A stretch of 42,314 bases of DNA. It comes from Planctomycetaceae bacterium (GTDB taxonomy: Bacteria; Planctomycetota; Planctomycetia; Planctomycetales; Planctomycetaceae). Each line of letters starts with the position of its first letter. Within the stretch, counting starts at the first letter, position 1. Under the pieces are notes generated by a model. The model was not told the origin of the DNA, searched no databases, and was given only the letters and a program-made list of their open reading frames with translations. The stretch covers positions 1-42,314 of the forward strand of contig JAKFVC010000158.1 of assembly GCA_021732415.1 (NCBI GenBank), written 5' to 3'. Of the stretch, positions 35,082-39,650 are shown in pieces. The position numbers and the translations under genes were made by a program.

Positions 35082-35088
35082 TCGAGAT

Positions 35089-35216
35089 GGGAGGGCGAGG
35101 CTCCCGCCGAGCCTAAAGCGACCGTCAGGTCGGAGTCCGCCGGAGGCCGTGTTTGATGCCTCCGGCGGTCGTCGAGCTAAAGCTCGTATTAGGCTCGGCG
35201 GGAGCCTCGCCCTCCC
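35089..35216. repeat. Family D palindrome, perfect copy
   Basis: Arms 35089-35114 and 35191-35216 are a perfect 26-bp inverted repeat, and CCGCCGGAGGC (35137-35147) with 35158-35168 nests inside. It separates convergent genes and could serve both as terminator. Compare 16951-17091. Confidence 0.9.
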
Positions 35217-35233
35217 AATCCGTCTGACTTGAA

Positions 35234-36544
35234 CTATGCCCCTGCGACCACAATCGCGGTCGCCTGGCCGGCCTTCGTGACGCTCGTCTTGAGGAAGACT
35301 TTGTTCGAAATCTTCAACGGCTCACCATGCACGACGTTCAACTGGCACTTCGGGTCGGGAGTCTCATAGTTCAGCGTCGGGGGGACCACACCGTGATCTA
35401 CCGCGAGTAACGAGCCGACCAGTTCCAACGTTCCGCAGCTCGCTCCGGGATTGCCCCAGTAGCTCTTGAGTGCGGTGACGGGAACCTTCGAACCCAGGTC
35501 GCCGAAGACATCATGAATTGCCAGAGCTTCTTCGACGTCGTCTTTGGGATCACCTTCCGCATGGGCGTTGATGTGCCCAATATCCGCGGGCTGCAAACCG
35601 GCGTCGCGCAACGCGTTTTGCATCGCCAGTTTCAAAGCGACACGCAAATTGCCAATGCCCTGACTCTTTGTGACGCATGCCGATCCGGCTCCCAAAATGC
35701 GTCCGAAGATCTTGGCGTTGCGTGCCTTCGCATGCTCGAGATCTTCGAGGATGATGGTCGCGGCACCTTCCGACACGACTTGCCCGGTCCGATTCAAGTC
35801 AAACGGGCGAATGGCCTTCGCCGGGTCACCACCAATCGCGGGAGCCAATTCATTCCACATCACAGCGTGCATGCTTTGAATCGCGTGCAGCGTCGTCCCT
35901 GTCGTGCCGCAGATCATCACATCAGCGCTATCGCGCTCCAGAATGCGGATCGCTTCGGAGATCGCCAGACCACCGGACGCTTCGGCCATGGTCAACGAAT
36001 TGCTCGGGCCACGAGCATCCGCAGAGATACCGATGTGACAGGCAGGCATGTTGGGCAGGAACAGGAGCAACCAAAGCGGTTCCATGTTCTTGAGGCCAAT
36101 CTCGCCCCATTTCTCATGGTGAAACTCGAACGCGCCTTCTTCACAGCACGACAGAGCACCCCGAGCCAGCACTTCCGGAGGGCTGAGCATCAGATTGGCG
36201 CCGAAGTCGATTCCCAGGCGTTCCGGAGCGACGGCCGTTTGTCCTTCACCGAGACCGGCGTTTTCCAGAGCCACCATGGCGCTCGCGACACCCATCTGGA
36301 TTTCGCGGCACATCGCCTTGATGCTTTTCTTCGGACGGACCAGTTCGCGGGCTTTCTTGTCGTTGAAGCCGCGGGCCTGACCGCCGATATGATCGGGCAA
36401 GGCCGAATCATTGATCAGATCGACCTTGGTGATTCCGCTGCGTCCGGCTGACAGATTTCCCCAGAACTCATCGATGCCGATCCCCAGCGGACTGACGACA
36501 CCGACCCCAGTAATTGCAATTTGGCGTTTAGACGTGCCCAGCAT
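35234..36544 (-). CDS. Ketosynthase-like protein with degenerate active site
   Basis: The 436-residue protein starts at ATG 36544 (LGTSKRQIAITGVGVVSPLG) and has the thiolase fold of KAS I/II throughout. The catalytic positions are altered: where FabF has Cys163 this has Glu188 (LTMAEASGG), His303 corresponds to His328 (INAHAEGD), Lys335 to Lys360, and His340 to Asn365 (LKSYWGNPGAS). The spacings 188-328-360-365 equal FabF's 163-303-335-340 exactly, so the alignment is firm. Without Cys and the second His it should not condense acyl chains. It could be a chain-length-factor-like partner, a decarboxylase, or an acyl-ACP binding protein. acpP and fabF lie upstream on the same strand, about 1.4 kb from this gene. 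Confidence 0.9.
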   Translation of the reverse strand: MLGTSKRQIAITGVGVVSPLGIGIDEFWGNLSAGRSGITKVDLINDSALPDHIGGQARGFNDKKARELVRPKKSIKAMCREIQMGVASAMVALENAGLGEGQTAVAPERLGIDFGANLMLSPPEVLARGALSCCEEGAFEFHHEKWGEIGLKNMEPLWLLLFLPNMPACHIGISADARGPSNSLTMAEASGGLAISEAIRILERDSADVMICGTTGTTLHAIQSMHAVMWNELAPAIGGDPAKAIRPFDLNRTGQVVSEGAATIILEDLEHAKARNAKIFGRILGAGSACVTKSQGIGNLRVALKLAMQNALRDAGLQPADIGHINAHAEGDPKDDVEEALAIHDVFGDLGSKVPVTALKSYWGNPGASCGTLELVGSLLAVDHGVVPPTLNYETPDPKCQLNVVHGEPLKISNKVFLKTSVTKAGQATAIVVAGA

Positions 36545-36961: not shown

Positions 36962-37432
36962 TCAGCGAGTCTTGTTGTGCCGCTGCATCGCCATGATCAC
37001 CGTTTCGCTGACGCCATCTTTTTTCAGGCCAATGATTCCGGTGGGAGACGTGTCAAACGCACCTCCACGATCTTGCATCGTGCTGATAATCAAAGCTTCT
37101 GACATCTGCGCGTGGGACATTTCGATCACGTCGAAATTGGTCATGGCTCGGGCACTGGCCTCACGCTGTTCTTCCATATGAGCGACATTGCGAGCAGTCG
37201 ACTCCTGCTCGTCTTTGACGTCGTCTTTATGTCCGAGAACGGATCCGGTGACGCCACCGATGGCCGCCCCGATCAACGCGCCCTCTTTTCCCTTGCCGAT
37301 TTGATGTCCAATAATGGCCCCAACACCTGCCCCGGCGCCTGTTCCGACCAGGGCACCCGTCCGCGTCTTGTTGGCACAACCGACGTTGAGCGACAGGCAA
37401 ACCAAGAGCGCAATGGAAAGAGTGGGCTTCAT
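36962..37432 (-). CDS. Glycine-zipper lipoprotein
   Basis: Starting at ATG 37432 (four codons inside the longest frame) gives MKPTLSIALLVCLSLNVGC, a lipoprotein signal with lipobox NVGC. Residues 25-65 are a glycine-zipper double helix (GALVGTGAGAGVGAIIGHQI, then EGALIGAAIGGVTGSVLGH), as in outer-membrane OmpA-like and YMGG proteins. A charged helix follows, and the C-terminal part (MSEALIISTMQDRGGAFDTS, GIIGLKKDGVSETVIMAM) looks like a small SHOCT-like or repeat motif. I infer insertion in or association with the outer membrane. The length of 156 residues is usual for such proteins. Confidence 0.8.
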   Translation of the reverse strand: MKPTLSIALLVCLSLNVGCANKTRTGALVGTGAGAGVGAIIGHQIGKGKEGALIGAAIGGVTGSVLGHKDDVKDEQESTARNVAHMEEQREASARAMTNFDVIEMSHAQMSEALIISTMQDRGGAFDTSPTGIIGLKKDGVSETVIMAMQRHNKTR

Positions 37433-37578
37433 CCTGAATTCCAATCAATATAGGCAGGTTGGGCAGTCTCGGTCGCGGCGAATGCCCGGCGCGGCAGTCG
37501 GATTATTCCGACGTGCGCGAATTTGCCGCATCTTCTTTATATTCGGCTGAGAGGAGCCAAGACTTGATGGGTTCCGCA

Positions 37579-37912
37579 GTGGGACGGGTCTCCAGGCCCG
37601 TCCGTCCAGCAGCGAGTTCGCGAATTGCTGGCAATCTTACGGATCCGTTTGGCGGATGGGTTTGGAGTATCGTCATTAGCCCCGGTAGGGGCGACCGCAT
37701 AAAGCCTGGGGCGGAAGCCCCAGGTGGCGTTGCTCAATAGAAATTGAAGCCCCGGAGGGGCGGCCCCTGTGCATTGCTTAAGGGGTCGCCCCTCCGGGGC
37801 TAAGGTGTTTCTCATTACCGACTCCCGGGGCTTCCGCCCCAGGCTTTATGCGGTCGCCCCTCCCGGGGCTAAAAGAAACGCACCGGACGGACGGGCCTGG
37901 AGACCCGTCCCA
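37579..37912. repeat. Three-level nested palindrome, families E and J
   Basis: The outer E arms 37579-37607 and 37884-37912 are a perfect 29-bp inverted repeat (core GACGGGTCTCCAGGCCCGTC). Inside them J arms 37678-37721 and 37827-37870 pair over about 43 of 44 positions (AGCCCCGGTAGGGGCGACCG at the left end), and inside those a third pair lies at 37748-37766 with 37782-37801. This fills most of the gap between fabF and the lipoprotein gene and would be a very stable hairpin in RNA. Confidence 0.9.
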
Positions 37913-37941
37913 CGATACCGCCGCGTAATCGACTGGTAACG

Positions 37942-39177
37942 TTAGATCTTCCCGATAATCAAGCACGCATTATGCCCGCCGAAGCCGAAGCTGTTGGACA
38001 GCACGCGTTCCAGACGGACAGATCGAGCCTGATGCGGGATGTAATCCAGGTCGCAATCTTCATCGGGGTTGTCGAGATTGATCGTTGGCGGGGCGACTTG
38101 ATTCAGCAACGCCATGACCGAGATCACGAATTCGACGCCGCCTGAAGCACCCAACAGGTGGCCCAATTGGCTCTTCGTGCTGGAGACCATGATTGACTTG
38201 GCGGTCTCGCGGAACACGGTCTTGATGGCGGCCGTTTCGGCTTTATCACCCAACGGAGTACTCGTCCCGTGGGCATTGATATAGTCGATCTGGCTGCTAT
38301 TCAGCTTCGCATCTCGCAAGGCACCGGCCATCGCGTATGCGGCCCCGGCACCATTGGGATCCGGTTGCGTAATGTGACTTCCATCGGCCGACATGCCATA
38401 ACCCAGGACTTCGGCCAGGATGTTCGCACCGCGCCGTCGGGCATACTCGTATTCTTCGAGCACCACGATTCCGGCACCTTCCGCCAGGACAAAACCATCG
38501 CGATCACGGTCAAACGGCCGACTGGCGGTTTGTGGATCGTCGTTCCGTGTGGACAGGGCGGACATCCGAGCAAACCCGGACAAACCCATCGGCGTAATCG
38601 CAGCCTCACTGCCGCCGGTGATCATCACGTCGGCCATGTCGTGCTGGATCAGCTTGTAGGCATCACCGATGGCATTGGATGCCGAGGCACACGCCGTGGC
38701 GACAGCACTATTGGGACCTCGAAGTCCAAACCGGACCGAGATATTGCCGCTGGCCGCGTTGACCATCAGCTTGGGAATCATGAACGGCGAGACGCGATTC
38801 GGGCCGCGATCGAACAGATTCGAATGCTGTTCTTCGATCTCGTTCAGGCCACCGATACCGCTGCCGATCAGTACGCCGTGGCGCCATTGGTCCCCCGCAG
38901 CGAAGTCGATTCCGGCTTGTTTGACTGCTTTGTGCGCTCCATAGAGAGCAAATTGCACGAAGCGATCCTGTCGTCGTAGATCACGTTCCGGGATGAACTC
39001 AGTCGGGTCAAAGTCCTTGATTTCTCCGCCAAATCTGACTTTGAAATCGGACACGTCAAACCGTTCTAACGGTCCGACGCCACTCTTGCCCGCGCAGAGT
39101 TTCTCCCAGAACTCGTCGATATCCAATCCCAGGGCGGTGACGACCGACATCCCTGTGACGACCACGCGCCTTGTCAT
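37942..39177 (-). CDS. fabF: Beta-ketoacyl-ACP synthase II
   Basis: This 411-residue protein matches E. coli FabF in length and numbering: Cys163 (TACASASNAIGDAY), His303 (NAHGTSTPLGD), Lys335 and His340 (STKSQLGHLLGASGG) are all present. It elongates fatty acyl-ACP by decarboxylative condensation with malonyl-ACP. It starts 3 nt after the acpP stop, with GGAAG before the ATG, so acpP and fabF form a tight operon as in many bacteria. Confidence 0.97.
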   Translation of the reverse strand: MTRRVVVTGMSVVTALGLDIDEFWEKLCAGKSGVGPLERFDVSDFKVRFGGEIKDFDPTEFIPERDLRRQDRFVQFALYGAHKAVKQAGIDFAAGDQWRHGVLIGSGIGGLNEIEEQHSNLFDRGPNRVSPFMIPKLMVNAASGNISVRFGLRGPNSAVATACASASNAIGDAYKLIQHDMADVMITGGSEAAITPMGLSGFARMSALSTRNDDPQTASRPFDRDRDGFVLAEGAGIVVLEEYEYARRRGANILAEVLGYGMSADGSHITQPDPNGAGAAYAMAGALRDAKLNSSQIDYINAHGTSTPLGDKAETAAIKTVFRETAKSIMVSSTKSQLGHLLGASGGVEFVISVMALLNQVAPPTINLDNPDEDCDLDYIPHQARSVRLERVLSNSFGFGGHNACLIIGKI

Positions 39178-39180
39178 CGA

Positions 39181-39411
39181 TTACTTCCGCTCTTCGATGT
39201 AGGTGACTGCATCTCCGACCGTCTTGATCTTCTCGTAGTCTTCGTCCGGGATGCTGATCTCGAACTCTTCTTCGATGTCCATGATGAGTTCGACAATGTC
39301 GAGTGAATCTGCCTTGAGATCTTCCACGAACCGGCTGGAACGATTGATCTCTTCCTTGGGCACCTTCAGGTGATCGACAACGAGCCCGATTACTTTTTCT
39401 TCGACCGACAC
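39181..39411 (-). CDS. acpP: Acyl carrier protein
   Basis: I use the GTG at 39411 because AAGGAGAG stands 6 nt before it and [17 protein letters not shown] is where ACP homology starts; the longer frame from 39459 adds a non-ACP basic tail. The 76-residue protein has the full four-helix layout, with [17 protein letters not shown] carrying the phosphopantetheine Ser, and the C-terminal [19 protein letters not shown]. It carries growing acyl chains in fatty acid synthesis and is acidic as expected. It contrasts with the truncated carrier-like domain at 5405-5719. Confidence 0.97.
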
Positions 39412-39650
39412 GCGACTCTCCTTCCGCTTGGCTGGATCCGCTTTGCAGGGGTTTCTCAAGAGCGACGAACAGATTGTCTGAAACTCGCCCGCTTCGTGAT
39501 TTGGAAACCATTAGACCGTATGCGAAGCACGAGGACAACACCCTGAGACGGTCTCGGGCAACTTCCTGCGAACATGCTGTTTGGTTGATTAATGGTTGGG
39601 GTTGGCCCGTCTGTGATTTTTCAGTCAAAAACAGACCAAACCGCGCACAG

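Follow-up and report, generated by a model that had tools for sequence, protein, structure and literature searches.

A cysteine-less, chain-length factor-like ketosynthase of Planctomycetota and its likely pairing with a cysteine-bearing ketosynthase

Planctomycetota encode a family of ketosynthase-like proteins in which the catalytic cysteine has been replaced, nearly always by Asp or Glu. We studied one of them in a 42,314-nucleotide stretch of a Planctomycetaceae bacterium (the window), and propose, with a probability of roughly 0.6, that it is a non-catalytic subunit resembling a chain-length factor (CLF), here named KSbeta, which arose within the phylum by duplication of a ketosynthase and likely forms a heterodimer with a cysteine-bearing ketosynthase, the likeliest being FabF.

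Results

The query is a full-length ketosynthase-like protein without the catalytic triad

The features of the window that are relevant to this study are as follows.

35234..36544, minus strand: KSbeta (subfamily A), cysteine-less ketosynthase-like protein, 436 aa plus stop
35450..35452, minus strand: Asn365 codon, position of FabF His340
35465..35467, minus strand: Lys360 codon, position of FabF Lys335
35561..35563, minus strand: His328 codon, position of FabF His303
35981..35983, minus strand: Glu188 codon, position of FabF Cys163
36071..36073, minus strand: Trp158 codon, position of FabF residue 133
36962..37444, minus strand: glycine-zipper protein, between fabF and KSbeta
37942..39177, minus strand: fabF, proposed catalytic partner, with Cys163/His303/Lys335/His340
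39181..39459, minus strand: acyl carrier protein (ACP) gene

The open reading frame runs from an ATG at 36544 to a stop codon ending at 35234, while frame 1 of the plus strand is interrupted by stops over 35234-36544; the gene is thus on the minus strand, a point on which the earlier note was silent. That note had claimed that E188, H328, K360 and N365 are spaced as in FabF, and this is correct: the spacings are 140, 32 and 5 residues, the window's own FabF reproduces them exactly (C163/H303/K335/H340), and a MAFFT alignment of homologues places E188 opposite Cys163 and N365 opposite His340. Counted from RGP, the nucleophile position falls on the eighth residue whether one takes the FabF of the window, the query (Glu) or two Streptomyces CLFs (Gln); the register is therefore free of gaps, and the four query positions are not due to chance because they are conserved across the clade.

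The query has both Pfam ketoacyl-synthase domains (3.8e-30 for the N domain, 2e-20 for the C domain), and scores 265 bits against the FabF equivalog TIGR03150 (NCBIfam), below the cut-off of 493.75, versus 629.8 for the neighbouring FabF. An AlphaFold2 model of the monomer is predicted with a mean pLDDT of 94.7, and the 50 matches listed of the 1213 returned by Foldseek for this model are FabF-type condensing enzymes (TMq 0.85-0.88). Although fold and overall length are common to the query and FabF (KAS II), the query is missing the Cys, one His and the GFGG loop, with E188/H328/N365 standing in place of the Cys-His-His triad. The gating loop, whose replacement by T423-K424-A425-G426 had been overlooked in the earlier note, carries Phe400 in FabF (PMC7138838). 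The query shares with CLFs a ketosynthase fold without catalytic Cys, but has Glu where CLFs have Gln. KSQ decarboxylases have Gln together with both His, a pattern from which the query departs at two positions (Glu and Asn).

Loss of the cysteine and of the gating loop defines a single clade

A first search covered 59 genomes (own, genus, family and class), from which a large share of the best matches were fetched and aligned. The resulting ketosynthase set comprises 198 distinct rows, 176 of which entered the tree. Left out were other ketosynthase types (L006, L007, L065 and L066), 21 near-identical or repeated loci, L037, the 20-kb re-fetches L108-L127 and frames longer than 480 aa, while four Streptomyces rows were swapped for the annotated proteins. 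In the tree, the 102 rows with Trp158 and without Cys form one side of one branch, with an SH-aLRT of 100; the cysteine-less label was assigned from residues 158 and 188, and both columns were retained in the tree.

Among these 102 relatives, residue 188 is Glu in 69, Asp in 30, and Asn, Ser and Gly in one each. Trp158 is invariant (102/102), residue 328 is His in 79, residue 360 is Lys in 96, and residue 365 is Asn in 72, His in 18, Ser in 9, Gln in 2 and Thr in 1. A GFGG loop is found in none of the 102 (SFGG in 5, TFGG in 2), versus 26/29 FabF, 32/36 KSalpha (the cysteine-bearing ketosynthase encoded next to many family members) and 5/5 cysteine-bearing sisters. In subfamily A, to which the query belongs, Cys is absent from position 188 in 54/54 rows and residue 365 is Asn (49) or Ser (5), never His, so close relatives offer no case of the Cys188/His365 pair that would have spoken against the earlier note. 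As His365 is retained in 11/16 rows of subfamily B, loss of the second His is not family-defining. What defines the family is loss of the Cys, with Asp or Glu in 99/102, and loss of GFGG in 102/102; of the signature put forward earlier, Glu together with loss of the second His, the acidic replacement therefore stands while the second His is variable.

The gene is under strong purifying selection, with a dN/dS of 0.05-0.07 within the genus, which bears out the earlier statement that it does not look like decay and shows no sign of pseudogenisation. Apparent Cys-to-Ala changes or gaps in some KSalpha rows were alignment slips, the segments showing Cys one column off. Separately, one KSbeta adjoining a KSalpha paralogue (L245, 2220-3665) has Ala at 188 instead of Asp or Glu.

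Five sister rows retain both the Cys and the GFGG loop, with a PLWLLKHLPNM form of the family motif, and KSalpha adjoins four of the five. They look like the state preceding Cys loss. Trp158 is also present in all five, and its invariance, sisters included, fits a tunnel-shaping role older than the loss of catalysis.

Spread of the family in the phylum

A profile of 49 members was run against 294 sampled genomes of the phylum at a threshold of E 1e-125. This showed that 64/294 pass: the own genome, 32 of the own family, 19 of the own class and 12 of other classes. The 20 non-matching genomes listed are all outside the class (210 further genomes do not match). Among aligned rows, all those scoring at least 483.3 bits are cysteine-less, and since the best Cys row scores 482.2 bits, part of the 12 matches in other classes are cysteine-bearing: these matches (L160-L171) have Cys in 4, Glu or Asp in 7 and Asn in 1. 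The best match in G013, a 79% complete genome, reaches only E 3.8e-55, and in G001 and G008 the best matches belong to the B type, at 42-43% identity. In six single-contig genomes (G004, G007, G010, G016, G021 and G035), the matches listed include one KSalpha, one FabF, one subfamily A and one subfamily B protein each.

Exact peptide patterns, a weak negative, found no family member outside the phylum among 31 loci, the 12 cysteine-less ones all being titled as planctomycete. Cys stands at the match in 18 of the remaining 19 loci, and one match (L066) spans a Cys-ketosynthase and a ketosynthase-like frame with Ala. In L066 (7056-11632), as in L065 (3815-8007), two Cys-ketosynthases flank a ketosynthase-like protein that has Ala where the nucleophile would be, alongside FabZ- and FabG-like frames.

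KSbeta and KSalpha are neighbours in the wider family

In 26/32 deeper relatives, a cysteine-bearing KSalpha gene lies downstream of KSbeta on the same strand, and many of the open frames abut. The usual order is FabZ, FabG (in part), ACP, FabZ, KSbeta, KSalpha and an alpha/beta hydrolase, to which three stretches add a GH3-family gene. One such region (L121, 7673-15236; also L084, L089 and L095; three planctomycete genomes) reads FabG, FabZ-like, KSbeta, KSalpha, alpha/beta hydrolase and GH3-family protein. By analogy, this layout is that of a KS/CLF pair, which a 2025 review describes as an obligate heterodimer with an "inactive" ketosynthase (PMC12664062).

In lineages with two KSbeta, eight of the ten KSalpha stretches fetched show FabZ-(FabG)-ACP-FabZ-KSalpha with no KSbeta in the slot (FabG being labelled in five of the eight), and the remaining two have KSalpha without FabZ or ACP. 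Three families, the query's among them, have this KSbeta-free slot, with the KSbeta genes located elsewhere. This is also the arrangement in the query's own genome, where KSalpha is on contig C9 with FabZ, FabG and ACP, a second KSalpha paralogue is on C12, and the subfamily B gene, with Asp at 188, is on C24, where no KSalpha or fabF is labelled in a 20-kb stretch around it.

Part of subfamily A is linked to fabF

Between fabF and the query lie 1.4 kb and a single gene, that of the glycine-zipper protein, flanked by gaps of ~0.4-0.5 kb. A homologue of the glycine-zipper gene lies upstream of KSbeta in 6/54 subfamily A rows, query included. A terminator-like hairpin between fabF and KSbeta (36906-36886) is at chance level for that region (4 found versus 4.5 expected). 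Inverted repeats are found downstream of KSbeta (35088-35217, 60-nt arms, 85%) and downstream of fabF (37579-37913, two repeats, one with 54-nt arms, 93%, the other with 29-nt arms, 100%).

Within the flank examined, 18/54 subfamily A rows have an upstream fabF on the same strand, mostly ~1.4 kb off, and the fabF-linked rows come to 20/54 with the window and G057 (row L083, 5.6 kb). No subfamily B row has fabF upstream (0/16). The order FabD, FabG, ACP, FabF, another protein and KSbeta is found in L039, L041 and L060 (outside the query's family) and in L225, a further genome (G049) that is not among the 54 rows; NusA is next after KSbeta in L041, L060 and L225. The protein between FabF and KSbeta in other families is, in L060, 440 aa long with no Pfam match. 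Of eight 20-kb stretches around subfamily A genes, three contain fabF and five do not (L111, L112, L116, L117 and L120), and no fabF is present in three 14-kb stretches (L177-L179). NusA still adjoins KSbeta in two of the five fabF-less stretches, as if fabF had moved away. Three subfamily A rows adjoin a KSalpha paralogue rather than fabF.

FabF is the likelier partner of subfamily A

We compared protein distances across 25 genomes, reduced to 23 (without G040 and G045) and then 22 (without G005, whose KSalpha is a paralogue). In the 22 genomes, which belong to the query's taxonomic family, the partial r is 0.46 for subfamily A against FabF (p 0.008) and 0.43 for subfamily B against KSalpha (p 0.001), these permutation p-values ignoring shared ancestry, versus 0.11 (p 0.185) for A against KSalpha. 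Leaving out G032 as well, A-FabF falls to 0.28 (p 0.028) and FabF-B rises to 0.50 (p 0.004); leaving out G032 and G010, A-FabF is 0.26 (p 0.042). With the non-orthologous KSalpha included (23 genomes), B-KSalpha is 0.12 (p 0.164). The covariation thus lends modest support to pairing. Several observations count against FabF as the partner: the subfamily A stretches in which it is missing, the gene and gaps that separate it from KSbeta in the window, the three rows beside a KSalpha paralogue, and a FabF sequence around position 133 that looks the same whether or not a lineage has subfamily A.

The main competing explanation, which we regard as unlikely, is that subfamily A is an alternative non-catalytic partner not of FabF but of the KSalpha on C9, so that A and B would yield two chain types from one KSalpha. 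It would account for the gene order across the family (26/32 deeper rows), for the three subfamily A rows beside a KSalpha paralogue, and for a C9 cassette without KSbeta in a genome with a second KSalpha paralogue on C12. However, A covaries with FabF over KSalpha, even if less so when G032 is left out, fabF is near 20/54 subfamily A rows, and subfamily B is free for the KSalpha slot. We therefore consider FabF likelier than KSalpha as the partner, by about two to one. The earlier suggestion of a non-condensing protein paired with FabF remains the best-supported reading, although the pairing itself is deduced from the order of the genes, their descent and their covarying rates.

A probable origin separate from antibiotic-pathway CLFs

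In the tree, Streptomyces KSalpha and CLF cluster with FabF, apart from planctomycete KSalpha and KSbeta. AU tests were run on 47 rows, a partly random draw, with groups named after the first tree; they rejected planctomycete and Streptomyces KSalpha as a single clade (p-AU 0.0016). As CLFs and the cysteine-less clade as a single clade were not rejected (p-AU 0.174), in a sample of only two Streptomyces pairs whose CLFs are on long branches, an origin separate from the CLFs of antibiotic pathways is likely rather than certain.

Two CLFs from Streptomyces plasmids (L128 and L130) resemble the query in having a ketosynthase fold, no Cys and a retained Lys. Their genes adjoin a Cys-ketosynthase and ACP, an arrangement found in the wider family (26/32), whereas the query is 1.4 kb and one gene away from fabF. 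They differ in that Gln rather than Glu or Asp replaces the Cys, which counts against the CLF analogy, and in that Asp and Arg replace the two His; they also lack the PLWLLKYLPNM motif. An apparent counterpart of Trp158 in these CLFs was an alignment artefact, their Trp being at -26 from the nucleophile versus -30 in the query.

The residues themselves are not new, since they have been in print since Rattray 2009 (PMC2649909). Table 2 of that paper gives, in FabB numbering, Glu163/His298/Lys328/Asn333 for Rhodopirellula baltica NP_866153 (RB 4527), which is the query pattern, and Asp163/His298/Ile328/His333 for NP_865682 (RB 3714), which by its printed residues is nearer to the second KSbeta type. 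Both are presented there as deviant FabF paralogues, and the excerpts of the paper contain no proposal of pairing with a Cys-ketosynthase. Published accounts describe other non-catalytic ketosynthase-like partners of a Cys-ketosynthase in FAS-like clusters, namely the cyclization factor AmcG of AmcF-AmcG (PMC10698177) and the aryl polyene protein ApeC/ORF16 (PMC8358021 and PMC3691225). ApeC is about half the size and AmcG is without some CLF secondary structures, whereas the query is full length, and ORF16 homologues retain Gln, unlike the query. Within Planctomycetota, the adjacent anammox genes kuste3605/3606 (PMC4790861 and PMC2649909) are listed as a catalytic and a non-canonical ketosynthase of a cluster that also has ACP and FabZ, but the non-canonical FabF is described as having Val, Phe or Ser at 163, not Asp or Glu. 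Planctomycetes are also listed among the phyla with matches to type II PKS KS-CLF (PMC10132072). Our search of the open-licence PMC literature found no description of the family, of its pairing with KSalpha or with FabF, or of its probable separate origin.

Discussion

How might a heterodimer of this kind work? The cysteine-bearing subunit would load the acyl chain and condense it with malonyl-ACP, and KSbeta would be the other half of the dimer, closing or shaping the acyl tunnel at the interface via Trp158. This residue lies 30 positions before the nucleophile, as does FabF residue 133, which we take to extend over the dimer interface and into the acyl pocket of the partner. Glu188 would make thioester acylation impossible, and the dead site may be held by Glu188 and Lys360, possibly paired. 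With FabF, encoded upstream, as the likeliest partner, the ordinary condensing enzyme of fatty acid synthesis would be partly heterodimeric. We put forward more tentatively, and rather doubt, the stronger proposal that the housekeeping elongating enzyme of Planctomycetia is a FabF-KSbeta heterodimer, with a separately evolved acidic CLF that was first a partner of KSalpha and was then duplicated into core fatty acid synthesis.

Two explanations dispense with a condensing dimer altogether. A stand-alone enzyme using Glu188 for other chemistry, e.g., a KSQ-like malonyl-ACP decarboxylase or an acyl-ACP hydrolase, would fit the purifying selection and the widespread retention of His328 and Lys360, but the second His is Asn in the query, the first is lost in 23/102 rows although 99 of them keep the acid overall, the gating loop is missing, and a carboxylate beside malonyl would presumably be unfavourable, all of which makes it improbable. 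More improbable still is an acyl-ACP-binding protein that serves the fatty acid synthase as a sensor or scaffold, which would suit the linkage to fabF and acp in part of the subfamily, yet leaves the KSbeta-KSalpha pairing of the wider family unexplained. Finally, a protein that has lost its Cys, a His and its gating loop might be taken for a decaying fabF paralogue, but the dN/dS rules out a pseudogene and the gene is intact and conserved across genera.

If KSbeta is indeed a CLF-like subunit paired with a cysteine-bearing ketosynthase, KS/CLF heterodimers would have arisen more than once, and one of them would have been recruited into the primary metabolism of a bacterial class, with the Cys-bearing sisters beside KSalpha representing an intermediate step. 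It would also provide a function for the cysteine-less "FabF" genes of planctomycetes, which the 2009 paper recorded but did not explain, and would indicate a second cassette of the FAS type, FabZ-FabG-ACP-FabZ-KSbeta-KSalpha plus an alpha/beta hydrolase, joined in some lineages by a GH3 enzyme.
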